A stretch of 11,309 nt of DNA. Source: an uncultured bacterium. Lineage in GTDB: Bacteria; Bacillota; Clostridia; Oscillospirales; Oscillospiraceae. Below, in pieces: positions 541 through 11,309 of this stretch. The DNA lies in NCBI GenBank assembly GCA_905215425.1, contig CAJMQD010000010.1, forward strand, positions 1-11,309. Direction: 5' to 3'. Within the stretch, counting starts at the first letter, position 1, and each line of letters opens with the position of its first letter. Under the pieces are notes generated by a model. That model did not search any database. It saw only the letters and a list, made by a program, of their open reading frames with translations, and had not been told where the DNA came from. A program made the position numbers and the translations under genes.

Positions 541-569
541 TTGACATTCCGTCATAAAGTTCTTATACT
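541..569 (+). promoter_or_regulatory. Promoter of the aro operon
   Basis: A perfect -35 hexamer TTGACA (541-546) is followed after exactly 17 bp by TATACT (564-569), one base from the TATAAT consensus. Transcription would start near A576-A577, about 30 nt before the leader peptide start. This is a near-consensus housekeeping sigma-70/SigA promoter. With so strong a promoter, control is likely to act after initiation, at the attenuator downstream. Confidence 0.88.
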
Positions 570-605
570 TTAGCCAACAACAGTTTAGCGACGGAGAGTG
601 TCCAT

Positions 606-659
606 ATGATGAATCGCTACTTTTTTGCATCCTATTACTACTTTACTATGACTGCGTAG
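606..659 (+). CDS. Tyr/Phe-rich leader peptide of the aro operon
   Basis: This 17-codon ORF encodes MMNRYFFASYYYFTMTA and ends with TAG at 657-659. Seven of 17 codons are Tyr (4) or Phe (3), clustered at 618-644 as Y-F-F-A-S-Y-Y-Y-F; there are no Trp codons. A good ribosome binding site, GGAGAG (593-598), lies 7 nt before the ATG, and a near-consensus promoter lies just upstream. A second ATG at 609 is an alternative start. It is followed by mutually exclusive RNA helices and an intrinsic terminator ahead of aroF. This is the layout of a classical attenuation leader, such as those of pheA and trp in enterobacteria. The peptide probably has no function beyond making ribosome progress depend on charged tRNA-Tyr and tRNA-Phe. 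Confidence 0.88.
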   Translation: MMNRYFFASYYYFTMTA

Positions 660-744
660 TAAGGCTAATTTGTGGTGCAAAAATAAGCTCGGTAAGAGAC
701 TGTTTCGTGCGGCACAGGTTAGACCTGTGCCGCATTTTCATTTT
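622..744 (+). promoter_or_regulatory. Ribosome-mediated attenuator (1:2, 2:3, 3:4 helices)
   Basis: Three competing helices can be drawn. Helix 1:2 pairs 622-631 (TTTTTGCATC, within the Phe codons) with 674-683 (GGTGCAAAAA): ten pairs, one of them G-U. Helix 2:3, the antiterminator, pairs 667-678 (AATTTGTGGTGC) with 709-720 (GCGGCACAGGTT): eleven of twelve positions, some G-U, with one G-G mismatch. Helix 3:4, the terminator, pairs 708-719 with 723-734. A ribosome stalled at the Tyr/Phe codons (618-644) covers segment 1 and leaves segment 2 free, so 2:3 forms and transcription continues. A ribosome reaching the stop codon at 657-659 would shield the start of segment 2, so the terminator forms. 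With no translation, 1:2 forms and the terminator again wins. The pairings are read from the sequence; the mechanism is inferred by analogy. Confidence 0.8.
708..744 (+). terminator. Attenuator terminator ahead of aroF
   Basis: TGCGGCACAGGT (708-719) pairs perfectly with ACCTGTGCCGCA (723-734) around a 3-nt TAG loop, followed by the U-rich tract TTTTCATTTT (735-744). It lies 31 nt before the aroF start and after the leader peptide, so it is a conditional terminator within the operon's own leader rather than the end of another gene. Confidence 0.85.
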
Positions 745-775: not shown

Positions 776-1777
776 ATGATCGTCGTATTAAAAAACGGAG
801 TAGAAAAAGAAAAACAGGATCAGCTGATGGACTGGCTGAAGGGCCAGGGGCTGAACATCCACGTCTCTCATGGCGTGTATCAGACTGTGCTGGGTCTGGT
901 GGGCGACACCAGCCGCATCGACATGGACCTTATCGGCAGTCTGGGCATTGTGGACTCCGTGACCCGGGTGACCGAGCCCTTCAAGTGCTGCAACCGCAAG
1001 TTCCACCCCGATGACACCGTGGTACAGGTGGGCGACGTGAAGATCGGCCACGGGAACTTCTGCATGATCGCCGGCCCCTGCTCTGTGGAGACAGAGGAAC
1101 AGATCGTAGCTGTGGCCAAGGCGGTCAAGGCCTCCGGCGCCAATATGCTCCGGGGCGGCGCCTTCAAACCCCGCACCTCCCCCTACGACTTCCAGGGGCT
1201 GAAGGCCGAGGGCATCGAGCTGCTGAAGATCGCCCGGCAGGAGACCGGCCTGCCCATCGTCACCGAGATCATGGGGGTGGAGCACCTGCCCCTGTTTGAA
1301 GATGTGGACCTCATTCAGGTGGGCGCCCGGAACATGCAGAACTTCGACCTTTTGAAGGAACTGGGCCGTCTGCGCAAGCCCATCCTCCTCAAGCGCGGCC
1401 TGGCCAGCACCATGAAGGAGCTGCTGATGAGCGCCGAGTACATCATGGCCGGAGGCAACGAGCAGGTCATCCTGTGCGAGCGGGGCATCCGCACCTTCGA
1501 CGACTACACCCGGAACACCCTGGACCTGGCCGTGGTGCCCATGCTGCGGGAGCTGACCCACCTGCCCATCATTGTAGATCCCAGTCACGCCACCGGAATT
1601 GCCCGGCTGGTGCCCCCCATGGCTCTGGCGGCCACCGCCTGCGGGGCCGACGGTCTGATCATCGAGGTACACAACGACCCCATTCACGCTCTGTGCGACG
1701 GCGCCCAGTCTCTGCGGCCGGAGGAATATGACGCTCTGGCCAAGAAGGTGCGCTCTGTGCGGGAGGCGGTACAATGA
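776..1777 (+). CDS. aroF: 3-deoxy-7-phosphoheptulonate synthase (DAHP synthase)
   Basis: Catalyses the first committed shikimate step, condensing phosphoenolpyruvate and erythrose-4-phosphate to DAHP in the cytoplasm. The 333-aa product has the Thermotoga maritima-type architecture: an N-terminal ferredoxin-like regulatory domain (about residues 1-70, opening MIVVLKNGVEKEKQ) and a TIM-barrel catalytic domain (about 75-333). Family motifs visible are IAGPCSVE, LRGGAFKPRTSPYDFQG, GARNMQNF, LLKRG, CERGIRTF and DPSHATG. The expected divalent metal ligands are present as Cys102, His271, Glu297 and Asp308. In this subfamily the ferredoxin-like domain binds Tyr/Phe and mediates feedback inhibition. 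The ATG has a strong GGAGGG site (763-768). This is the first structural gene after the attenuator, so it carries transcriptional and probably allosteric control. Its stop overlaps tyrA by ATGA. Confidence 0.97.
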   Translation: MIVVLKNGVEKEKQDQLMDWLKGQGLNIHVSHGVYQTVLGLVGDTSRIDMDLIGSLGIVDSVTRVTEPFKCCNRKFHPDDTVVQVGDVKIGHGNFCMIAGPCSVETEEQIVAVAKAVKASGANMLRGGAFKPRTSPYDFQGLKAEGIELLKIARQETGLPIVTEIMGVEHLPLFEDVDLIQVGARNMQNFDLLKELGRLRKPILLKRGLASTMKELLMSAEYIMAGGNEQVILCERGIRTFDDYTRNTLDLAVVPMLRELTHLPIIVDPSHATGIARLVPPMALAATACGADGLIIEVHNDPIHALCDGAQSLRPEEYDALAKKVRSVREAVQ

Positions 1778-2607
1778 CAATCGGGATTCTCGGCCTGGGG
1801 CTGATCGGCGGTTCCTTTGCCAAAGCCTATCACGAGGCGGGCTGGCAGGTGCTGGCCCTTGACGCCGATCCCAGCACTCAGGAATTCGCCCAGCTCAGCG
1901 GCGCGGTAGACGGCCCGCTTACCGATGACAAGCTTGCCGCCTGCGACCTGATCCTGCTGGCGGCCTATCCCGCCGCCTCCATCGCCTACTTTAAAGAAAA
2001 GGCCCCTCTCATGGGCCCCCACCCGGTGGTCATCGACTGCTGCGGCACCAAGCGGGTGGTGTGCTCCGCCTGTTTCCCCGTGGCCAAGGAGCACGGCGTC
2101 ACCTTCCTGGGCGGCCACCCCATGGCGGGCACCCACAACTCCGGCTTCAAATACGCCCGGGCCAACCTGTTCCACAGCGCCCCCATGGTGCTGGTGCCCA
2201 TGGACCGGGACGACATCACTCTGCTGGACCGGGCCAAGGCCCTGCTGGCCCCGGCGGGCTTTGGCCGCTTCTCCATCACCGGCGCGCCGGAGCACGACGA
2301 GATGATCGCCTTCACCTCTCAGATGGCCCATGTGATCTCCAACGGATACATCAAAAGCCCCACCGCCGGGGCCCACAAGGGCTTCTCCGCGGGCAGCTAC
2401 AAGGACATGACCCGGGTGGCCTGGCTGGCGCCCCAGATGTGGGCGGAGCTCTTCCTGGAAAACAAGGACTTTCTGCTGAAAGAGCTGGACTTTTTTATGG
2501 CCAGTATGCAGCAGTATCGCGACGCCCTGGCGGCAGACGATCAGCAGGAGCTGGTGCGGCTGCTGGACGAGGGCAGAAAACGAAAGGCGGAGGTTGACGG
2601 ACGATGA
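1774..2607 (+). CDS. tyrA: Prephenate dehydrogenase
   Basis: Converts prephenate to 4-hydroxyphenylpyruvate with oxidation by NAD(P)+, the tyrosine branch. The 277-aa protein opens with a Rossmann dinucleotide-binding motif (ILGLGLIGGS, glycines at about 7, 9 and 12). It has the TyrA signature GGHPMAGTHNSG with the conserved active-site His115, then a helical dimerisation domain containing GSYKDMTRVA, whose Arg is the usual prephenate-contacting region. Asp at the end of beta-2 (ALDADP) suggests NAD rather than NADP preference; this is inference. There is no ACT or chorismate mutase domain, so it is a monofunctional short form. Its position, second in the operon ahead of the common-pathway genes, is not pathway order. 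Both ends overlap neighbours by ATGA, implying translational coupling. Confidence 0.95.
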   Translation: MTIGILGLGLIGGSFAKAYHEAGWQVLALDADPSTQEFAQLSGAVDGPLTDDKLAACDLILLAAYPAASIAYFKEKAPLMGPHPVVIDCCGTKRVVCSACFPVAKEHGVTFLGGHPMAGTHNSGFKYARANLFHSAPMVLVPMDRDDITLLDRAKALLAPAGFGRFSITGAPEHDEMIAFTSQMAHVISNGYIKSPTAGAHKGFSAGSYKDMTRVAWLAPQMWAELFLENKDFLLKELDFFMASMQQYRDALAADDQQELVRLLDEGRKRKAEVDGR

Positions 2608-3665
2608 CTACCATTCATGTTGCGGCATCCCGGGAATACGACATTGAGATCGGCCGCGGCCTGCTGGACCAGGCCGGAGCGCACATCGCCCAGGTCACCG
2701 GAGCGGGGCGCACCGCCGCCGTGATCTCCGACACCAATGTGCTGCCCCTGTACGGCCAGCGTCTGTGCAGCAGTCTGGAGCAGGCGGGCTTCCGGGTGAT
2801 CTCCTGGGCCTTCCCTGCCGGGGAGGCCAGCAAGAATCTGACCACTTACGGGCAGCTGCTCCACTTTTTAGGGGAGAACCACATGACCCGCAGCGACATT
2901 ATCGTGGCCCTGGGCGGCGGCGTCACCGGGGACATGGCGGGCTTTGCCGCCGCCACCTATCAGCGGGGCATCCCCTTCATTCAGGTGCCCACCACCCTGC
3001 TGGCGGCGGTGGACTCCTCTGTAGGGGGCAAAACCGCCATCGACCTGAACACGGGCAAGAATCAGGCCGGGTGCTTCTATCAGCCCTGGCTGGTGCTGTG
3101 CGACCCGGACACCCTGACCACCCTGCCGGAGCGGGAGTACCGCTGCGGCTACGGAGAGATCATCAAGTACAGCGTGCTCTTCGACGCCAACTTTTTTGAG
3201 GAGCTTTGGAATACCCCCGTCAAGGATCAGGTGGAGCATGTGATCTCCACCTGCGTCACCCTGAAGCGCATGGCGGTGATGGAGGACGAGTTCGACACCG
3301 GCGCCCGCCGGAAGCTGAACCTGGGACACTCCTTCGGCCACGCGGTGGAGGCGTGCAGCGACTTCTCCATCCCCCACGGCTGCGCCGTGGCCATCGGCAT
3401 GGCCATCATCACCCGGGCGGCGGTGAAGCGGGGCATCTGCACCCAGGAGGTACTGGACCGCCTGCTGGCCATTCTGGACAAATACGACCTGCCCACCCAG
3501 ACCGATTACCCCCTGGAGGCGCTGTACCGCGCCGCCCTGTCCGATAAAAAGATCTCCGGCGGCAAGATGCACCTGATTGTCCCCGAGGCCATCGGCCGCT
3601 GCCGCATCGAGTCCATTCCCGAGGCTGAGATTCGGGACTGGATGCGGGACGGGGGCATCCAATGA
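2604..3665 (+). CDS. aroB: 3-dehydroquinate synthase
   Basis: Cyclises DAHP to 3-dehydroquinate, an NAD+- and Zn2+/Co2+-dependent reaction and the second shikimate step. At 353 aa it is of normal length. The N-terminal Rossmann-like half has GGGVTGD (104-110) and VPTTLLAAVDSSVGGKTAID, the classic AroB signature covering NAD binding and the active-site Lys. The metal ligands are visible as Glu185 (in YGEIIKY), His242 (first His of GHSFGHA) and His258 (in IPHGCAVAIGM). The ATG overlaps the tyrA stop and the gene ends in an ATGA overlap with aroA. Nothing suggests damage or unusual domain content. Confidence 0.97.
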   Translation: MTTIHVAASREYDIEIGRGLLDQAGAHIAQVTGAGRTAAVISDTNVLPLYGQRLCSSLEQAGFRVISWAFPAGEASKNLTTYGQLLHFLGENHMTRSDIIVALGGGVTGDMAGFAAATYQRGIPFIQVPTTLLAAVDSSVGGKTAIDLNTGKNQAGCFYQPWLVLCDPDTLTTLPEREYRCGYGEIIKYSVLFDANFFEELWNTPVKDQVEHVISTCVTLKRMAVMEDEFDTGARRKLNLGHSFGHAVEACSDFSIPHGCAVAIGMAIITRAAVKRGICTQEVLDRLLAILDKYDLPTQTDYPLEALYRAALSDKKISGGKMHLIVPEAIGRCRIESIPEAEIRDWMRDGGIQ

Positions 3666-4921
3666 CGGCCGTCGCGGCCCCCGGCCCCCGCACGGGACGG
3701 GTGACCATCCCCGCCTCCAAGTCTCAGGCCCACCGGCTGCTGATCTGCGCTGCCCTGGGCCGGGAGCCGGTGGAGCTGGTGTGCGGCGGCCCCTCTGCCG
3801 ACATTTTAGCTACGACCAAATGTCTCAATGCCCTTGGGGCGGACATTCAGCAGACTGCCCCGGATCGCTTTTCCGTCCGGCCCATTGCCGCCGCCCCCGG
3901 CGCCCCGGCACAGCTGGCCTGCGGCGAGAGCGGCTCCACCCTCCGCTTCCTGCTCCCCTTAGTGGGGGCCCTGGGGGCGGAAGGCACCTTTGTCATGGAG
4001 GGCCGCCTGCCCCAGCGGCCTCTGGCCCCCTTTGATACGGTTCTGAAGGAGCACGGCATGACTCTGGAGCAGGAGGGCAGCCTCCTCCGCTGCGGCGGCC
4101 GGCTGCGCCCCGGGGAATATACACTGCCCGGAAACGTGTCCTCCCAGTACATCTCCGGCCTGCTCATGGCCCTGCCCCGGCTGGCGGGGGACAGCACCCT
4201 CACTGTCACCGGACCCATGGAGTCGGCGGGCTATGTGGCCATGACCGAGGATGCCCTGCGCCTGTCCGGCATCCGGTTCACCCGGGACGGCCAGAGCTGG
4301 CGCATCCCCGGCGGCCAGACCTGCCGCCTGCCCGGACTGTGCCGGGTGGAGGGAGACTGGTCCAACGCCGCCTTTTTCCTGTGCGCCGGGGCCCTGTCCC
4401 CGGGGGGAATCACCGTAGAGGGCCTGTCCCTCACCTCCTCCCAGGGGGACCGGGCAGTTCTGGACATCCTCCGCGCCTTCGGGGCGCAGGTGGAGGCGTC
4501 AGAGGGCTCCGTCACCGTCCGCAGGAGTGCCCTGCGGGGCGTCACCATCGACGCCGCCCCCATCCCCGATCTGATCCCCGCTCTCAGCGCGGTGGCCGCG
4601 GCGGCGGAGGGGACCACTTATATTGAAAACGCCGGGCGGCTGCGCCTGAAGGAGTCCGACCGGCTGAAGAGCACCGCCGCCCTGCTGTCCGCCCTGGGCG
4701 GGCAGGTGGAGGAACAGGAGAGCGGTCTGGTCATCCACGGCCGAGCCCAGCTGGCGGGCGGCACCGTGGATGCCTGGAACGACCACCGCATCGCCATGGC
4801 GGCCGCCGTGGCCGCCTGCGCCTGCCGCGGACCGGTCACGGTGACGGACAGCCAGTGCGTCGCCAAATCCTACCCCCGCTTCTGGGAGGACTTTCAGCAG
4901 CTGAAAGGAGAACAGCCATGA
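3662..4921 (+). CDS. aroA: 3-phosphoshikimate 1-carboxyvinyltransferase (EPSP synthase)
   Basis: Transfers the enolpyruvyl group of PEP to shikimate-3-phosphate, the sixth shikimate step. The 419-aa protein has the expected two-domain inside-out barrel signatures: the N-terminal KSQAHR motif (Lys20, Arg25), CGESGSTLRF for PEP binding, LPQRPL, GDWSNAAFF, the catalytic Asp303 in IPDLIPAL, ESDRLKS and WNDHRIAMA, ending with SYPRFWEDF. The glycine in SGST that corresponds to the glyphosate-sensitive position is retained, so this reads as a glyphosate-sensitive type rather than the Ala-containing tolerant type (inference). The start codon overlaps the aroB stop. The end overlaps aroC by ATGA, with the aroC ribosome binding site inside the last aroA codons. 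Confidence 0.96.
   Translation: MTAVAAPGPRTGRVTIPASKSQAHRLLICAALGREPVELVCGGPSADILATTKCLNALGADIQQTAPDRFSVRPIAAAPGAPAQLACGESGSTLRFLLPLVGALGAEGTFVMEGRLPQRPLAPFDTVLKEHGMTLEQEGSLLRCGGRLRPGEYTLPGNVSSQYISGLLMALPRLAGDSTLTVTGPMESAGYVAMTEDALRLSGIRFTRDGQSWRIPGGQTCRLPGLCRVEGDWSNAAFFLCAGALSPGGITVEGLSLTSSQGDRAVLDILRAFGAQVEASEGSVTVRRSALRGVTIDAAPIPDLIPALSAVAAAAEGTTYIENAGRLRLKESDRLKSTAALLSALGGQVEEQESGLVIHGRAQLAGGTVDAWNDHRIAMAAAVAACACRGPVTVTDSQCVAKSYPRFWEDFQQLKGEQP
4904..4910 (+). promoter_or_regulatory. Ribosome binding site that fixes the aroC start
   Basis: AAAGGAG ends 7 nt before the ATG at 4918. This supports 4918 as the aroC start over a longer in-frame reading from 4855, which would add 21 residues from within aroA that no chorismate synthase carries. 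Confidence 0.85.
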
Positions 4922-5988
4922 GCAGCAGCTACGGTGAAAATCTGCACCTGACCATCTTCGGTCAGTCCCACTCCCCGGCCATCGGCGTGACCATGGAGGG
5001 TATCCCCGCCGGGGAGAATGTGGATCTGGAGGCCCTCCAACGGTTTTTAGGCCGCCGGGCCCCGGGGCAGAATGCCTGGTCCACCCCCCGGAAGGAGGGG
5101 GATGTACCCGAATTCCTGTGCGGTCTGAAGGACGGCCGCACCTGCGGCGCACCCATAACGGCCATCATCCGCAACACCAACACCCGCTCCGGCGACTACG
5201 CCGCCCTGGCCCGCACCCCCCGCCCCGGCCACGCCGACTACACCGCCCAGGTGAAATACTTCGGCGCCCAGGACTACGCCGGGGGCGGCCACTTCTCCGG
5301 GCGGCTCACCGCCCCCCTGTGCATCGCCGGCGGCATCTGCCTCCAGCTGCTGGAGCGGGAGGGCATCCAGATCATCAGCCGCATCGCCACCGTCGCCGGA
5401 GTGGAGGACGCGGGGGAGCTGACCTGCTCCACCGCACACAAGCCCTTCCCCACTGTCAGCGACGCCCAGGGGCAAAAAATGCAGCAGGCCATCGCCGCTG
5501 CCCGACAGGAGGGTGACTCCGTGGGCGGCATCGTGGAGTGCGCCGTACTGGGTCTGCCCGCCGGACTGGGGGACCCCATGTTCGGCGGCATGGAAAACCG
5601 CATTGCCGCCATCGTCTTCGGCATTCCCGCCGTGAAGGGCGTGGAGTTCGGCGCCGGGTTTGGCGCCGCCGGGCTGCGGGGCAGCGAAAACAACGACCCC
5701 TTCACTGTGGAAAACGGGAAGGTAGTCACCACCGCCAACCGCTGCGGCGGAATTTTAGGGGGCATCACCGACGGAATGCCCCTCACCTTCCGGGCCGCCT
5801 TTAAGCCCACCCCCTCCATCTCCCGGGAGCAGCGCAGCGTAGACCTGAACACCATGACTCCCGCCCCGCTGACCGTCACCGGGCGGCACGACCCCTGTAT
5901 CGTGCCCCGGGCCGTCCCCTGTGTGGAGGCAGCCGCCGCCATCGCCGTATACGACGCCCTGCTGGCGCGCAAAAAAGAAACGAGGTAA
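4918..5988 (+). CDS. aroC: Chorismate synthase
   Basis: Converts EPSP to chorismate, the last common step, using reduced FMN without net redox change. The 356-aa product begins MSSSYGENLHLTIFGQSHS. Signatures visible: the N-terminal motif around FGQSH (His18), RPGHADY (His105), GGGHFSGR, ENNDPF, GGILGGITDGMPL and the C-terminal RHDPCIVPRAVPCVEA (His324). His18 and His105 match the two catalytic histidines known in the family. The first motif reads GQSHS rather than the more familiar GESHG; from memory, FGQSH also occurs in other clostridial enzymes, so activity is not in doubt. The start overlaps the aroA stop by ATGA, and a 4-nt gap separates the stop from pheA. Whether the reduced flavin is made by a separate reductase cannot be told here. 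Confidence 0.97.
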   Translation: MSSSYGENLHLTIFGQSHSPAIGVTMEGIPAGENVDLEALQRFLGRRAPGQNAWSTPRKEGDVPEFLCGLKDGRTCGAPITAIIRNTNTRSGDYAALARTPRPGHADYTAQVKYFGAQDYAGGGHFSGRLTAPLCIAGGICLQLLEREGIQIISRIATVAGVEDAGELTCSTAHKPFPTVSDAQGQKMQQAIAAARQEGDSVGGIVECAVLGLPAGLGDPMFGGMENRIAAIVFGIPAVKGVEFGAGFGAAGLRGSENNDPFTVENGKVVTTANRCGGILGGITDGMPLTFRAAFKPTPSISREQRSVDLNTMTPAPLTVTGRHDPCIVPRAVPCVEAAAAIAVYDALLARKKETR

Positions 5989-5992
5989 CAAC

Positions 5993-7135
5993 ATGGACCT
6001 TAACGACTATCGCAAGCAGATCGACGACATCGACCGCCAGCTGCTGGCCCTGTTCGGCCAGCGCATGGAGGTGGCCGCCGCCATCGCCGCCTATAAAAAG
6101 GAGCATGATCTGCCCGTTCTGGACGGCAAGCGGGAGCGGGAGAAGCTGCTGGATGTGGCGGCAAAAACTCCGGATGACCTGAAGGATTACGCCGTATCTC
6201 TCTACTCCCTGCTGTTCGAGCTCAGCCGCAGCCACCAGACCCGCATGCTGGGCACCAACACCGCCCTGACCGAACAGATCGCCCGGGCCATTGAACACAC
6301 CCCCAAGCTCTTCCCCAGCAGCGCCGCCGTGGCCTGTCAGGGCGTGGAGGGGGCCTACTCCCAGCTGGCCTGTGACCGGCTGTTCAAGCTGCCCAACGTA
6401 TTCTATTTTTCCAATTTCGAAGCCGTGTTCTCCGCCATTGAAAAGGGACTGTGCCAATACGGCGTCATCCCCGTGGAGAACAGCACCGCCGGCTCCGTCA
6501 ATGCGGTATACGACCTGATGATGCGCCACGACTTCCGCATCGTGCGCAGTCTGCGGCTGAAGGTGGACCACAACCTGCTGGCCAATCCCGGAGCCAAGCT
6601 GTCCGACATCAGGGAGATCTGCTCCCACGAGCAGGCCATCGCCCAGTGCTCCGCCTTTTTGCAGCAGCACCCCGAGATCACCGTGGTCCGCTGCGAAAAC
6701 ACTGCCGCCGCCGCCAAGCGGGTGGCCCAGTCCGGCCGGAAGGATGTAGCGGCCCTGTCCTCCCGCTCCTGCGCTGAGCTGTACGGCCTGACCTGTCTGG
6801 CCTCCAATGTACAGGACCAGGGGAACAACTTCACCCGGTTCATCTGCATCTCAAAAAACCTGGAGATCTACCCCGGGGCCGACCGCACCAGCCTGATGAT
6901 GGTGCTGCCCCACCGCCCCGGCTCTCTGTACAAGGTGCTGTCCCGGTTCTATGCCCTGGGCATCAACCTGAACAAGCTGGAGAGCCGGCCCATGCCCGAG
7001 CGCAACTTCGAGTTCATGTTCTACTTCGACTTGGAGACCTCCGTTTACACCCCCCAGTTCCAGCAGCTCATGGCCGAGCTCCCCTCTCTGTGCGAGGAGT
7101 TCTCCTATCTGGGCAGCTACAGCGAGGTGGTATAA
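5993..7135 (+). CDS. pheA: Bifunctional chorismate mutase / prephenate dehydratase (P-protein)
   Basis: Rearranges chorismate to prephenate and dehydrates it to phenylpyruvate. The 380-aa protein has three domains. An AroQ-class chorismate mutase (1 to about 85) keeps the residues known from E. coli as Arg7, Arg24, Lys35, Asp44, Arg47 and Glu48. A prephenate dehydratase (about 110-290) has GVEGAYSQLA, GVIPVENSTAGSV and the catalytic TRF motif with Thr281. A C-terminal ACT domain (about 298-375) has PGSL (309-312) and ESRP (330-333), the Phe-binding motifs of this family. Phenylalanine feedback inhibition is therefore expected. Its mutase also supplies prephenate for TyrA, since no separate mutase is present. 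The ATG at 5993 has GAGG 7 nt upstream. The stop overlaps the next start as TAATG. Confidence 0.96.
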   Translation: MDLNDYRKQIDDIDRQLLALFGQRMEVAAAIAAYKKEHDLPVLDGKREREKLLDVAAKTPDDLKDYAVSLYSLLFELSRSHQTRMLGTNTALTEQIARAIEHTPKLFPSSAAVACQGVEGAYSQLACDRLFKLPNVFYFSNFEAVFSAIEKGLCQYGVIPVENSTAGSVNAVYDLMMRHDFRIVRSLRLKVDHNLLANPGAKLSDIREICSHEQAIAQCSAFLQQHPEITVVRCENTAAAAKRVAQSGRKDVAALSSRSCAELYGLTCLASNVQDQGNNFTRFICISKNLEIYPGADRTSLMMVLPHRPGSLYKVLSRFYALGINLNKLESRPMPERNFEFMFYFDLETSVYTPQFQQLMAELPSLCEEFSYLGSYSEVV

Positions 7136-8361
7136 TGGAAGGGAAATACGGACTTTTAGGGGAAAAGCTGGGCCACAGCTACTCCCCTGCCATCCACGCC
7201 CTGCTGGGAGACTACGACTACAAGCTGTATGAGTGTCCCAAGGACAAGCTGGACGAGTTTCTCACCCGCCGGGACTTCGCCGGACTGAACGTGACCATCC
7301 CCTACAAAAAAGCGGTCATCCCCCACTGCGCCCAACTGTCCCCCATCGCGAAAAAGCTAGGCAGCGTGAATGTACTGATCCACCGGAAGGACGGCACCCT
7401 GTACGGCGACAACACCGACGCCTACGGCTTTGCCGGGATGGTGGCCCACAGCGGCATCGCCGTGGCGGGCAGAAAGGTGCTGGTGCTGGGCAGCGGCGGC
7501 GCCTCCGCCACGGTGTGCGCCGTGCTGGAGCAGCTGGGGGCCGCCAGCGTCACCGTCATCTCCCGCTCCGGCGAGGACAACTACAACAATCTGGACCGCC
7601 ACGCCGACGCCGACGTGATCGTCAACACCACCCCCGTGGGGATGTACCCCAACAATGGGGTCTCCCCCCTGGACCTGAAGGGCTTTCCCCGGTGCAGCGG
7701 CGTGCTGGACATCCTGTATAACCCCGCCCGCACCGCTTTGATGCTTCAGGCGGAGGAGCTGGGCATCCCCTGCGCCGGAGGGCTCTATATGCTGGTGGCC
7801 CAGGCCAAGCGCACCGCCGAGCTGTTCCTGGATCAGGAGATCGCCGACAGCGAGATCGTCCGCATCCGCGACCTGCTGGCCCGCCGGATGCAGAACATCG
7901 TCCTGATCGGTATGCCCGGCAGCGGCAAGTCCACGGTGGCCGCTCTGCTGGGGAAAAGGCTGGGCCGCCCCGTAACTGACAGCGATGCCGCCGTGGAGGC
8001 GGCCGCCGGAACGTCCATCCCCAAGATCTTCGCCGACCAGGGGCAGGACGCCTTCCGCACTCTGGAGACTCAGGCGCTGGCTCAGCTGGGCAAGAGCTCA
8101 GCCGGCATCATCGCCACCGGGGGCGGCTGCGTCACCCGGCGTGAAAACTACCCCCTGCTGCATCAGAACGGGGTGATCTTCTGGCTGCGCCGGGATACGG
8201 ACCGCCTGCCCCGGGAGGGGCGCCCCATCTCCCTCAGCCGGGACCTGAAGGAGCTGGAGATGGAACGGGAGCCCCTGTACCGGGCCTTTGCCGACCATAT
8301 CATTGACAACAACGGCCCCGTGGAGGACACGGTGCGCCAGATCATGGAGGTGATGGGATGA
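7135..8361 (+). CDS. aroE/aroK: Fused shikimate dehydrogenase - shikimate kinase
   Basis: One 408-aa frame carries two consecutive shikimate enzymes. Residues 1 to about 248 are AroE: LGHSYSP (shikimate-binding Ser15, Ser17), NVTIPYKK with catalytic Lys58, Asn79, DNTD with Asp95, the nucleotide-binding GSGGAS (119-124) and NTTPVGMYP. Residues about 252-408 are AroK: Walker A GMPGSGKST (259-267, Lys265), DSD (282-284), FRTLE with Arg308, GGG (329-331), and a GRP lid segment with Arg363. It would reduce 3-dehydroshikimate with NADPH, then phosphorylate shikimate with ATP. The AroE C-terminal helix runs almost directly into kinase strand 1 (RRMQNIVLIG) with hardly any linker. I see no stop or good ribosome binding site at the junction (around 7888), although Met252 could in principle be an internal start. 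The start overlaps the pheA stop; GAGGTGG lies just upstream. Confidence 0.93.
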   Translation: MEGKYGLLGEKLGHSYSPAIHALLGDYDYKLYECPKDKLDEFLTRRDFAGLNVTIPYKKAVIPHCAQLSPIAKKLGSVNVLIHRKDGTLYGDNTDAYGFAGMVAHSGIAVAGRKVLVLGSGGASATVCAVLEQLGAASVTVISRSGEDNYNNLDRHADADVIVNTTPVGMYPNNGVSPLDLKGFPRCSGVLDILYNPARTALMLQAEELGIPCAGGLYMLVAQAKRTAELFLDQEIADSEIVRIRDLLARRMQNIVLIGMPGSGKSTVAALLGKRLGRPVTDSDAAVEAAAGTSIPKIFADQGQDAFRTLETQALAQLGKSSAGIIATGGGCVTRRENYPLLHQNGVIFWLRRDTDRLPREGRPISLSRDLKELEMEREPLYRAFADHIIDNNGPVEDTVRQIMEVMG

Positions 8362-8804
8362 AGCTGCTGATCATCAACGGCCCCAACCTGAATCTGCTGG
8401 GCCTGCGGGAGCCGGATATCTACGGCAGGCAGGACTATGCCCAGCTGTGCCAGTTTGTGCTGGACGCCTGCCAGGAGGCCGGCGTGGAGGGCGAGGTATT
8501 CCAGTCCAACCACGAGGGGGCCATTGTGGACCGGATCCAGGAGGCTTACGGCAGGTTCGACGGCATCGTTATCAACCCCGCCGCCTATACCCACACCAGC
8601 GTGGCCATTCTGGATGCCCTGAAGGCGGTAGCCCTGCCCGCGGTGGAGGTCCATCTGTCCGACGTCAGCCAGCGGGAGAGCTTCCGTCAGATCTCCTACG
8701 CCGGCATGGCCTGCATCAAAACCTATATGGGGCTGGGCTTCGAGGGGTACCGTCAGGCCATTCTCTCTTTGAAGGACTATCTGTCCAAGGAGGCAAACGT
8801 ATGA
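8358..8804 (+). CDS. aroQ: 3-dehydroquinate dehydratase, type II
   Basis: Dehydrates 3-dehydroquinate to 3-dehydroshikimate, the third shikimate step. The 148-aa product is a standard small type II dehydroquinase, a flavodoxin-like fold usually assembled as a dodecamer. It begins KLLIINGPNLNLLG and has the catalytic Tyr22 with Arg17 (LREPDIYG), SNHEG, INPAAYTHTS (Asn73, His79) and EVHLSD...REsFR (His99, Arg106). The usual HxSN is HLSD here, a conservative change at a loop whose main chain contacts substrate. It overlaps aroE/aroK and the aminotransferase by ATGA. No type I (AroD) enzyme is seen. Confidence 0.96.
   Translation: MKLLIINGPNLNLLGLREPDIYGRQDYAQLCQFVLDACQEAGVEGEVFQSNHEGAIVDRIQEAYGRFDGIVINPAAYTHTSVAILDALKAVALPAVEVHLSDVSQRESFRQISYAGMACIKTYMGLGFEGYRQAILSLKDYLSKEANV
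8787..8793 (+). promoter_or_regulatory. Ribosome binding site that fixes the aminotransferase start
   Basis: AAGGAGG lies inside the last aroQ codons, 7 nt before the ATG at 8801. It supports this start over a longer open frame reaching back to 8447, which would overlap nearly all of aroQ and add about 118 residues foreign to the aminotransferase fold. Confidence 0.88.
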
Positions 8805-9991
8805 TTCCTGAACGACTTGTTACCTGGGGCAGCAGCGGCTGCTCCATCCGCGAGATCGCCGCATACGGCGAACAGCGGGCCGCCATTGTGGGGCCGGAGA
8901 ATGTGTATAACTTCACCATCGGCAGTCCCAGCATCGACCCGCCCCCCTGCGTCCGTCAGACCATCGACCGCCTGATGGACACCATGCCCCCCACGGCACT
9001 CCACGCCTATGCCCCCGCCCAGGGACTGGCCGATGTGCGCCGGAAGATGGCCGACTACCTGAACCGCACCTTCTCCATGGACTACCGCCCCCAGGACGTG
9101 TACATGACCGACGGTGCCTCCGCCGCCCTTTCCATCCTGGCCCACGCCCTGCTCTCCCCGGGGGACGAGGCCGTCACCCTGGCCCCCTTCTTCTCGGAGT
9201 ACCGGGTGTTTGTGGAGGACGCCGGCGGCGTACTGCGGGTGGTGCCCGGTCTGCCCGGCACCTTCCAGCCCGACCCGCCCGCTATCGAGGCGGCCATCAA
9301 CGAAAAGACCGCCGTGTTCCTCCTCAACTCCCCCAACAACCCCTCCGGCGTAGTGCTGTCCCGGGAGAGTCTGACCGACCTGTGCGCTCTGCTGGAGCGC
9401 AAGCAGCGGGAATACGGACACCCCATCTACATCGTGGCGGACGAGCCCTACCGCGAGCTGGTCTACGGCGGCACAGAGGTGGCCTTCCTCCCCGCCATGT
9501 ACGCCAACACCGTGTACTGCTACTCCTTCAGCAAGTCCATGTCCCTGCCCGGCGAGCGGGTGGGCTTCCTGGCCCTGTCCCCCCGGGTGGAGGACCACGA
9601 CCGGGTGATGGCCGCGGTGGCCGGGGCTTACCGGACCCAGGGCTACATCTGCGTGTCCTCCCTGTTCCAGCGGGTGGCCGCCGCGTGCATCGGTCAGACG
9701 GCGGACATCTCCGCCTATGAGGCCAACCGCGACCTGATCTACAACGGCCTGCGGGAACTGGGCTTCCAGTGCGTCTATCCCGACGGGGCCTTCTACCTGT
9801 TCGTCAAGTCGCCGGAGCCCGACGCCCGGGCCTTCTGCAAGCGGGCCATGGAGTACGACCTGCTGATGGTGCCCGGCGACGACTTCGAGTGCCCCGGCTA
9901 TGTGCGCCTGGCCTACTGCGTAGCCAAGGACACCCTGGAGCGCTCTCTGCCCGTGTTTAAAAAGCTGGCTCAGAGCTACGGCTTGGTCTAA
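8801..9991 (+). CDS. Class I/II PLP-dependent aminotransferase, probable aromatic/aspartate type
   Basis: A 396-aa fold-type I aminotransferase of the aspartate/aromatic group (class I/II). Visible motifs are NSPNNPSG (176-183), ADEPYRELVY (Asp214 contacting the PLP pyridine nitrogen, Tyr217), YSFSKSMSLPGERVGF with the PLP Schiff-base Lys245, and the C-terminal VRLAYC with Arg369, expected to bind the substrate alpha-carboxylate. It is the last gene of an operon that makes phenylpyruvate and 4-hydroxyphenylpyruvate, so it is probably the transaminase that finishes Phe and Tyr synthesis. Substrate specificity cannot be read from sequence, and an aspartate or general aminotransferase is possible. 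Its ATG overlaps the aroQ stop. A bidirectional terminator follows 13 nt after its stop codon. Confidence 0.9.
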   Translation: MIPERLVTWGSSGCSIREIAAYGEQRAAIVGPENVYNFTIGSPSIDPPPCVRQTIDRLMDTMPPTALHAYAPAQGLADVRRKMADYLNRTFSMDYRPQDVYMTDGASAALSILAHALLSPGDEAVTLAPFFSEYRVFVEDAGGVLRVVPGLPGTFQPDPPAIEAAINEKTAVFLLNSPNNPSGVVLSRESLTDLCALLERKQREYGHPIYIVADEPYRELVYGGTEVAFLPAMYANTVYCYSFSKSMSLPGERVGFLALSPRVEDHDRVMAAVAGAYRTQGYICVSSLFQRVAAACIGQTADISAYEANRDLIYNGLRELGFQCVYPDGAFYLFVKSPEPDARAFCKRAMEYDLLMVPGDDFECPGYVRLAYCVAKDTLERSLPVFKKLAQSYGLV

Positions 9992-10047: not shown

Positions 10048-10638
10048 TCAGTTCAGGTGAAGGCCATAGAACCCTACCATAGCCATTGCCATCAGTCCCA
10101 TGGTGATCAAGCGAATGGGCACGCCCCGGAATACTTTGGGGCAGCTCTCCATATCCACTTCCTCCCCAAGGGAGGCATAGCTGACCATAACCACCGTTGC
10201 GCCGATCCCGCCGCACAGGGCAAACACCAGGGCGGCCCCCAGGCCATAGCCCCGCTGAGAGATCAGCAGGACCACGCCCAAAGCCGCGCAGTTGGTGGTG
10301 ATAGAGGCCAGATTTTCGTCGATCCGCCGGGACAATTCCGGCAGACAGGCCCGGATCACCCGCCGCAGACCGGCCACCACGCTCAGGGCCAGCAGGGTGA
10401 ACACCAAGGTCCGCAGATACGTCAGACTGAAGCGCACCAGAATCAGGTTGTCCGCCAACCAGCCCAGCAGGGCGGTAACCACCATCACCAGGGTCAGGCT
10501 GTACCCGGTGCGGAAGGCGTCCTTGGGCTCCCGCAGAGCCTGTTCCCGCACGCCCAGTCCAAGGCATTTGACCAGAATAAAATTTTCCGACAGCAGGGCC
10601 GCCAGGGCGATCCCCGCCAATTCAAAGGGTATTTTCAC
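10048..10638 (-). CDS. rnfA: Divergent RnfA, Rnf electron transport complex subunit
   Basis: A 196-aa polytopic membrane protein (about six helices) that aligns along most of its length with RnfA/RsxA: ENFILVKCLGLG against NNFVLVKFLGLC, YLRTLVF, ITTNCAALGV (Cys117), and a C-terminal FRGVPIRLITMGLMAMAMVGFYGL. RnfA and RnfE form the membrane core of the ferredoxin:NAD+ oxidoreductase, sharing a [2Fe-2S] cluster held by conserved cysteines. This protein keeps the TTNC cysteine but has Gly29 where LGLC normally ends; a different Cys sits four residues earlier (Cys25). Polar DENLAS also replaces the usual hydrophobic GIFLPL before TTNC. The start is GTG with an AAGGGGAG site upstream, 18 nt after the rnfG stop. 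It is RnfA rather than RnfE by the TTNCAxLG motif and its C-terminus. No rnfB follows. Confidence 0.85.
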   Translation of the reverse strand: MKIPFELAGIALAALLSENFILVKCLGLGVREQALREPKDAFRTGYSLTLVMVVTALLGWLADNLILVRFSLTYLRTLVFTLLALSVVAGLRRVIRACLPELSRRIDENLASITTNCAALGVVLLISQRGYGLGAALVFALCGGIGATVVMVSYASLGEEVDMESCPKVFRGVPIRLITMGLMAMAMVGFYGLHLN

Positions 10639-10656
10639 CGTTCTCTCCCCTTTTCT

Positions 10657-11309
10657 TTACACTTCGCCGTCTTCATAGGACTGGTCGTCCTCCGGATCCA
10701 GATTGGCCACAATGGCCAGCGCCCGGTTCACTCCGGCGGTGATGGCCTTGGAGGTGGCCGTGGCTCCGGACACCGCGTCCACGCAGTTGCTGCCGGACAT
10801 ACGAATGGTGCCGGAGCGGCCCACATACTGGTCCAGATAGTCCTTCTCCATGGCCTTCGTGCCCATGTTCCGGGTCTCGCTGTGATCGGTCACCGCCACA
10901 CCGGTGACCTTACCGTCCAGATCCACCCCCACCACCATGGTGATGGGTCCGCCAAAGCCGTGGGTCTGTACCTCCACACAGTAGCCGATCATCTCATCGT
11001 CGCTGTATCCCGCCGTAATGCTCAAGGCGTAGGGGGAACGGTAGGGGGTCTCCGAGCGATAGGATGCCTCCGGCATCACCTGCCGCAGCAGCTCCCGCTG
11101 CTCCACCAGCTCTGCCCGGGCTGTGTCCAGACCGGTCAGCTGAGACAAACCGTTCAGCCCCAGCACCACAACTGCAATCACGGCGGCCAGCACCCCACAG
11201 GACTTGCCCCAGGCGCGGTACTGGTCCAGATGGGCCTCCCCGGCCACGGAGCCGTCAGCTTTTACAAAATGGGGCAGCTTCAGCTGGGGACGGACAAATT
11301 TGATTTGAG
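10657..11309 (-). CDS. rnfG: RnfG, FMN-carrying subunit of the Rnf complex (5' end outside the window)
   Basis: The frame is open from the right edge to TAA at 10657-10659; only the 3' part of the gene is present. It shows a cytoplasmic N-terminal stretch of at least 35 residues, one transmembrane helix (GVLAAVIAVVVLGLNGL), then an extracytoplasmic FMN-binding domain with FGGPITMVVGVD, HSETRNMG and the flavinylation motif DAVSGAT (10759-10779). ApbE is known to attach FMN to the Thr of such motifs, here the codon at 10759-10761. RnfG passes electrons across the membrane within the Rnf complex, which couples ferredoxin oxidation to Na+ or H+ export. A GTG at 11245-11247 could begin a shorter form, but it lacks a ribosome binding site, so I favour a start beyond the edge. 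rnfA follows closely. Confidence 0.88.
   Translation of the reverse strand, partial: QIKFVRPQLKLPHFVKADGSVAGEAHLDQYRAWGKSCGVLAAVIAVVVLGLNGLSQLTGLDTARAELVEQRELLRQVMPEASYRSETPYRSPYALSITAGYSDDEMIGYCVEVQTHGFGGPITMVVGVDLDGKVTGVAVTDHSETRNMGTKAMEKDYLDQYVGRSGTIRMSGSNCVDAVSGATATSKAITAGVNRALAIVANLDPEDDQSYEDGEV

Follow-up and report, generated by a model that had tools for sequence, protein, structure and literature searches.

The locus analyzed here raises the question of how an operon for the biosynthesis of phenylalanine and tyrosine is controlled in a group of bacteria, the Firmicutes, that are usually described as users of T-boxes and TRAP for aromatic amino acid pathways. The window, that is, the entire analyzed stretch of 11,309 nucleotides from an uncultured member of the Oscillospiraceae, contains on its forward strand an operon with the gene order aroF-tyrA-aroB-aroA-aroC-pheA-aroE/K-aroQ-aminotransferase. 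The aroF gene (776..1777) encodes a DAHP synthase that matches the NF006421 and TIGR01361 profiles above the cut-off, and is followed by tyrA (prephenate dehydrogenase, 1774..2607), for which the best matches fall below the equivalog cut-offs. Profile matches identify aroB (3-dehydroquinate synthase, 2604..3665), aroA (EPSP synthase, 3662..4921), aroC (chorismate synthase, 4915..5988), pheA (chorismate mutase-prephenate dehydratase, 5993..7135), aroQ (type II 3-dehydroquinate dehydratase, 8358..8804) and a PLP-dependent aminotransferase of the PRK06836 type (8801..9991); between pheA and aroQ, shikimate dehydrogenase and shikimate kinase are fused in one frame (aroE-aroK, 7135..8361), with best matches, below the cut-offs, that cover residues 5-246 and 252-405. 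The opposite strand at 10048-11247, convergent with the aro operon, carries an RnfA-like gene (best match, below the cut-off) preceded by an RnfG-like ORF recognized by eye. The region preceding aroF had been interpreted, without database searches, as a Tyr/Phe leader-peptide attenuator; this sequence-only reading is supported, at the level of sequence comparison, by the analysis described here.

The promoter, ribosome binding site, 17-codon peptide, competing helices and terminator proposed in that reading were all recovered at the same positions by scanning, folding and visual inspection. A consensus scan detects a sigma-70 type promoter, TTGACA-N17-TATACT, at 541..569 (forward strand, as are all the leader features), with 11 of the 12 consensus positions matched; given that shuffled sequences contain on average 0.6 sites of this score, the promoter alone is weak evidence. 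Further upstream, there are strong inverted repeats, one of them terminator-like (56-87) and the other seen by eye (213-252). The ribosome binding site, GGAGAG (593..598, by eye), is located 7 nt 5' of the ATG at 606 that opens the leader peptide ORF MMNRYFFASYYYFTMTA (606..659; stop codon TAG at 657-659), in which 7 of the 17 codons are for Tyr or Phe, as originally noted. Thus, at the sequence level, the leader includes a short ORF with a start codon and a ribosome binding site that is rich in codons for the products of the operon, as an attenuator requires.

Folding of the leader RNA yields the three mutually exclusive helices that had been named and an additional one. Segment 1 (622..631), which consists of the Phe-Phe-Ala codons, forms 9 pairs with 674..683, that is, the 3' part of segment 2 and the bases next to it, and this 1:2 helix is also supported by the swap test described below. 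Inside it lies the hairpin missing from the original list of helices, 641-650:655-664, in which 10 base pairs join the last Tyr/Phe codons to the flank of the stop codon (641..664; folding and swap test). Segment 2 (667..678), delineated by a motif with the consensus GUGAUUUGUGCUGCA in the relatives and by the swap test, pairs with segment 3 (709..720; folding and covariation) at 11 of 12 positions, with G675-G712 unpaired, to form the antiterminator; alternatively, segment 3 pairs with segment 4 in the intrinsic terminator (707..743), a helix of 13 pairs (707-719:723-735, -23.6 kcal/mol) that covaries in relatives and is followed by the U-rich tail TTTCATTTTC. The terminator thus lies between the leader and the first gene, the place expected for an attenuator. 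The leader RNA of the window folds better than 200 of 200 dinucleotide shuffles (z -4.7). In two-state folding, 661-720 alone adopts the antiterminator (-19.1 kcal/mol) and the sequence from 672 onward adopts the terminator; when the whole of 661-740 is available, the terminator exceeds the antiterminator in stability, so that read-through depends on prior formation of the antiterminator, just as classically modelled.

With this anatomy, with the conservation and covarying alternative pairings of the element, and with codons that match the genes behind them, we infer stalling, termination and amino acid response, and consider the element to be, in all likelihood, a ribosome-mediated transcription attenuator of the aro-tyr-phe operon and one member of a chassis family in which the codons fit the gene behind. 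Under this model, a shortage of charged tRNA-Tyr or tRNA-Phe would stall the ribosome within the aromatic codons, where it would cover segment 1 and make segment 2 available to segment 3; with these two paired, the terminator would be blocked and the operon transcribed. When both charged tRNAs are plentiful, the ribosome would run over or up to segment 2, segments 3 and 4 would pair, and transcription would stop near position 740. When no ribosome is present, the 1:2 helix and the 641-664 hairpin would hold segment 2, and the terminator would form as well.

The sequence-only reading proposed that conservation of the Tyr/Phe codons be checked in related genomes. We collected relatives by scanning with the AroF protein of the window and analyzed the best 80 of a larger number of aroF loci, the titles of which are mostly those of Oscillospiraceae, Ruminococcaceae, Lachnospiraceae or Clostridia metagenome-assembled genomes (MAGs). 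In 73 of these best 80 loci, in addition to the window, a script recognizes an aromatic leader accompanied by a terminator-like hairpin, and in seven it recognizes none (L010, L025, L027, L042, L051, L063 and L075); of the latter, L042 has only 57 nt of upstream DNA, and at L025 a model match marks a leader that is weaker, MTFSANYYYACPAAVVRVG. One of the assigned loci, L004, has a doubtful hairpin that overlaps the ORF, and the assignment of its leader, which ends in WRWRKF, is uncertain; the aro operon of this locus ends with aroQ followed by a trpB-like gene. Upstream of aroF, 60 of the 79 loci (from the best 80) with enough upstream DNA contain a short ORF in which 6 or more of 8 residues are aromatic, a density that is reached in 15 of 1580 shuffled sequences, in one of the 79 reverse strands and in 11 of the 5830 other windows. 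Nearly all leaders (72 of 74) start with ATG and, under a stricter cut (-14 kcal/mol or lower, with at least 5 U), 60 of the 74 retain a terminator. The original reading, in which such an attenuator was considered notable given the more frequent use of T-boxes or TRAP in Firmicutes, needs correction in this respect: within this group, the element is frequent rather than rare. The leaders use UUU for Phe far more often than UUC (276 vs 68), whereas the aroF genes, over their first 975 nt, show the reverse preference (260 vs 403); the UUU preference may come from UUU:AAA pairing in the arm of the 1:2 helix.

The recurrence of a hydrophobic peptide of the same kind could also be explained if the ORF encoded a small, membrane-like working peptide, with the downstream terminator being unrelated. 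However, the peptides vary widely in length (16 to 42 residues) and in C-terminal sequence, what persists being the aromatic content, the start and the RNA pairings, and, as shown below, the leader residues shift with the downstream gene, including Leu-rich and Ile-rich versions on the same RNA. We regard a working peptide as highly improbable.

The attenuator reading makes the position of segment 2 relative to the regulatory codons a central property. The segment 2 motif was derived by an iterated weight matrix, the seed for which was chosen after inspection of the antiterminator results for individual loci. In 69 loci from the best 80, segment 2 starts at a median of 20 nt past the aromatic run, with a standard deviation of 7.3 nt, as against 18.6 nt for the distance from the stop codon. 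This spacing, tight with respect to the aromatic codons and loose with respect to the stop, is consistent with a constraint imposed by a stalled ribosome; in 63 of the 69 loci, segment 2 is within 10-30 nt of the aromatic run, the spacing that stalling calls for. It lies past the stop codon in 34 of the 69 loci and inside the ORF in 35, so that the start of segment 2 at 7 nt past the stop codon, emphasized in the sequence-only reading, is accurate for the window but does not generalize to the relatives, where the distance scatters.

The alternative pairings were assessed with a swap test in which the pairing score of the segments of each locus was compared to that obtained with swapped partners (69 loci, 5000 permutations). 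The 2:3 and 1:2 pairings yielded z of 10.3 and 9.0, respectively, and none of the 5000 permutations reached either value, whereas in the same 69 loci the controls, 1:3 pairing and reversed segment 2, gave -0.2 and 1.1. The kinship of the sequences inflates shuffle statistics, but a general artefact is not what the flat 1:3 control suggests. The inner hairpin passed the same test in two architectures (z 6.6 in 32 loci and 7.0 in 33 loci), and four pairs that reach into the terminator loop scored 3.34 of 4 with own partners vs 2.37 with swapped ones (z 8.8; 38 sequences). When the loci are considered individually, the antiterminator is better than in dinucleotide shuffles (p 0.05) at 34 of 73, and 46 of 69 2:3 pairings and 34 of 69 1:2 pairings exceed simple shuffles. 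In the 19 closest sequences, the inner hairpin and the terminator together show 32 doubly changed cells vs 10.2 in shuffles (0 of 500), almost all of them in the terminator, with 4 from the inner hairpin. In the same 19 sequences, the antiterminator hardly covaries: it is 89% paired, and 332 of 500 shuffles reach its number of pair types and 52 of 500 its pairing. After this weak signal, the test was widened to the 69 diverse loci and to paralogues. With four paralogues added to the 19 closest sequences, 2 of 500 shuffles reach the antiterminator score and 189 of 500 its pair types; in a set of 19 paralogues and three aroF leaders, the antiterminator does covary, with 16 cells vs 5.3 (0 of 500 shuffles), although 117 of 500 shuffles reach its doubly changed pair count. 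Taken together, these tests reveal the mutually exclusive antiterminator, with covariation that is weak in the 19 closest sequences and middling with the four paralogues, along with a protective 1:2 helix that incorporates the regulatory codons, both hallmarks of attenuators. The helix covariation that had been proposed as a check is thus borne out for the alternative pairings, not clearly so for the antiterminator in the 19 closest sequences.

If the leaders sense amino acids, their codons should follow the genes behind them, and this is what we observe. Phe codons precede pheA, aroF-pheA and phenylacetate-CoA ligase genes, Tyr codons precede aroF-tyrA and symporters, Trp-containing leaders precede trpB-like genes, and a Leu leader precedes one acyl-CoA synthetase. 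With the gene content of the operons determined by tblastn using the proteins of the window, the share of Phe among the Phe and Tyr codons is 0.79 in Phe-only units (n=9), 0.54 in operons with both tyrA and pheA (n=48) and 0.36 in those for which tyrA, but no pheA, was detected (n=6); the Mann-Whitney p values for these differences, 3e-6 and 0.003, come from leaders that are related rather than independent, and the Phe-only value remains 1.6e-5 after one of each pair of near-duplicates (L068/L078 and L023/L028) is dropped. One genome, G023, has both kinds, with 7 Phe and no Tyr codons before aroF-pheA, and 4 Tyr and 1 Phe before aroF-tyrA. Trp codons are present in all 8 trpB-like leaders tested vs 4 of the 48 leaders of tyrA+pheA operons (p 3e-7), where Tyr and Phe are mixed, in agreement with the original proposal that Tyr and Phe, not Trp, are sensed in the window; a ninth trpB-like leader, L199, contains three Trp codons by eye. 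All trpB-like leaders keep Phe codons and most keep Tyr codons, so these leaders may not be Trp-specific. This match bears on the possibility that the attenuator senses general translation speed or polarity rather than Tyr and Phe, given that segment 2 should become available whenever a ribosome stalls in the ORF. Such a general sensor would not call for codon content that follows the product of the operon itself, or for 7 aromatic codons among the 17 in the window, and we consider it very unlikely.

Another alternative is that a T-box or a metabolite riboswitch runs the operon, the small ORF being incidental. T-boxes are certainly at hand: matches over the cut-off were found in all 15 genomes tested. 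The trpE gene was not found in 12 of 15 genomes tested, many of which are MAGs and may be incomplete; in the other three, a T-box match is located 5' of trpE, no farther than about 0.2 kb away in G008 and in G013 and 2.4 kb away in G001, and exceeds the Rfam cut-off in G008 only. Furthermore, L010, one of the loci without an aromatic leader, has a T-box before a trpB-like gene, and at L037 and L014 a T-box-like sequence, seen by eye and without a match at the Rfam cut-off, precedes such a gene; the same gene therefore appears to occur under either control. By contrast, the window contains no Rfam family at the gathering score, a loose scan of 480-800 returned just two eukaryotic chance matches, the T-box covariance model (RF00230) has no match in the window leader, and Rfam 15 scans of the window and 18 paralogue loci detected no known leader family, including RF01743. 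In addition, the predicted structure is made from the codons of the ORF itself. That the operon is run by a T-box or riboswitch appears extremely unlikely.

The attenuator extends beyond aroF. A covariance model of 19 aroF leaders (R1) retrieved, from the genome of locus L001 (G001), a Leu-rich leader, MKHISLANLFLLLLLPQEIE (E 7e-12; L119/L109), that precedes a gene for a fused TIM-barrel and acyl-CoA synthetase protein, and an Ile-rich leader, MMKQSSFAIIIGIIISFIIRKCDKVGL (E 2.5e-7; L101/L175), that sits at a contig end. The same model places an aromatic leader ahead of the TrpX-like ABC genes of G002 (E 3e-11) and, as a weak match, of G004 (E 0.05), the latter reaching E 7e-7 with a second model, R2. 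R2 and a third model, R3, represent the chassis, namely, segments 2-4 and about 16 nt 5' of them. R2 matches 27 of 40 tested genomes from among those of the first loci (E 0.01). Within the family of G006, it matches 57 of 150 genomes (E 0.001), and within that of G001, 18 of 100 (E 0.01), where only G001 and G126 fall below 1e-5. Order-wide scans with R3 at E 1e-4, with strict filters and 14 or 36 candidates scored per genome, match 17 of 295 genomes in the order of G006 and 1 of 116 in that of G001. Because G001 is the sole match in the sample of its order, its Leu and Ile copies may come from misbinned contigs or transfer.

Among 113 chassis loci, some of them seen before, 59 start with aroF and 26 (23 distinct) are other loci with a leader; the remaining 28 of the 54 non-aroF matches have no recognizable leader and were left out of the family (L146, L149, L153, L212, L232, L216, L205, L132 and L229 were viewed as sequence, the rest through the ORF list). 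Twenty of the 23 distinct leaders precede non-aroF genes: TrpX-like substrate-binding proteins (5), sodium symporters (4), trpB-like genes (4), pheA (2), phenylacetate-CoA ligase (2), aroB (2) and the acyl-CoA synthetase fusion (1); the other three are a displaced aroF (L194), what by eye is the beginning of an aroF gene cut off by the end of its contig (L195) and the Ile copy. A sixth TrpX-like gene follows a leader at L111. The genes at L142, L203, L213, L202, L209, L220, L218, L185, L206, L144, L207, L200, L204 and L109 were named from profile matches, other trpB-like genes by tblastn, and those at L165, L166, L223 and L111 by eye; the TrpX, PaaK, symporter and prephenate dehydratase assignments are best matches below the NCBI equivalog cut-offs, whereas TrpB-like matches are above them. 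At L256, a leader, MTRNNVFGTGNYYCKE, is followed by a small ORF, behind which lies a gene that by eye resembles tyrosyl-tRNA synthetase. From their similarity, we read segments 2-4 as a codon-exchangeable attenuator family of common origin in Oscillospirales-type Clostridia, with Tyr/Phe, Phe, Tyr, Trp-containing, Leu and Ile codons that would each fit the gene behind.

The sodium symporters behind Tyr-rich or Trp/Phe/Tyr leaders (L202, L209, L220 and L223) are possible aromatic amino acid transporters. Phe-rich leaders precede phenylacetate-CoA ligase-like genes at L185 and L206, suggesting control of Phe made from phenylacetate. The available part of one paper mentions rumen routes from phenylacetate to Phe and, via isovalerate carboxylation, to Leu (PMC7356843); the Phe leader before phenylacetate-CoA ligase fits the former route, and the Leu leader before the acyl-CoA synthetase might fit the latter, the links being ours. 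Overall, it seems likely that one homologous chassis was multiplied in Oscillospirales-type Clostridia and acquired different leader codons (Tyr/Phe, Phe, Tyr, Trp with Tyr/Phe, Leu, Ile), linking to the ribosome the genes by which each amino acid is made, salvaged and imported, as a counterpart of the T-box that sometimes takes its place at the same gene, with codons that predict substrates. A large gut and rumen group appears to run the whole aromatic pathway by leader peptides, beside T-boxes. Since a shared RNA frame is combined with another set of codons ahead of each kind of gene, these codons can serve as a label: if the proposal is correct, they predict substrates, for example, testable ones (Tyr or Phe) for the TrpX-like ABC and sodium symporter transporters, and point to the conversion of phenylacetate to Phe and perhaps of isovalerate to Leu. 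The family also provides a natural set of codon swaps for attenuation studies.

The classical ribosome-mediated attenuators are those of Proteobacteria, trpL, pheL and hisL. The element described here shares with them the leader peptide with cognate codons, the 1:2, 2:3 and 3:4 helices and the intrinsic terminator, but differs in that one chassis serves different amino acid specificities within one bacterial group, that segment 2 is inside the ORF at about half of the loci, and that regulatory codons form an extra hairpin. Among the closest precedents, the uORFC-13-1 element, 24 sequences from Acholeplasma and environmental DNA, pairs a uORF that has one or more Phe codons with a terminator, both ahead of aroF, and attenuation has been proposed for it (PMC8632094); compared by description only, it is similar, but Tyr, Trp and Leu versions like those found here are not mentioned in the available part of that paper. 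The Leu/phe leader of Lactococcus lactis (RF01743; PMC2864571), by its name a two-amino-acid leader in Firmicutes, is perhaps a precedent for exchanged codons, as far as the available text goes, but belongs to another bacterial group and had no match in our Rfam scans. The His leader peptides before hisS/hisZ in bacilli, as outlined in PMC2965389, differ in being confined to histidine and one gene family. For the Phe and Tyr operons of Actinobacteria, the available part of PMC1262725 reports no conserved RNA structures, and also notes that attenuator pairing patterns can stay conserved over large distances. In the literature searched, we found these precedents and no description of the element or of a codon-exchanged family. 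At the family level, the closest analogy is to the T-box (RF00230), in which a common RNA frame is likewise combined with a codon choice that sets the amino acid, the difference being that here sensing is predicted to be by the translating ribosome rather than by direct binding of tRNA. Thus, the mechanism is of a known kind, and the new part is the organization of the family.
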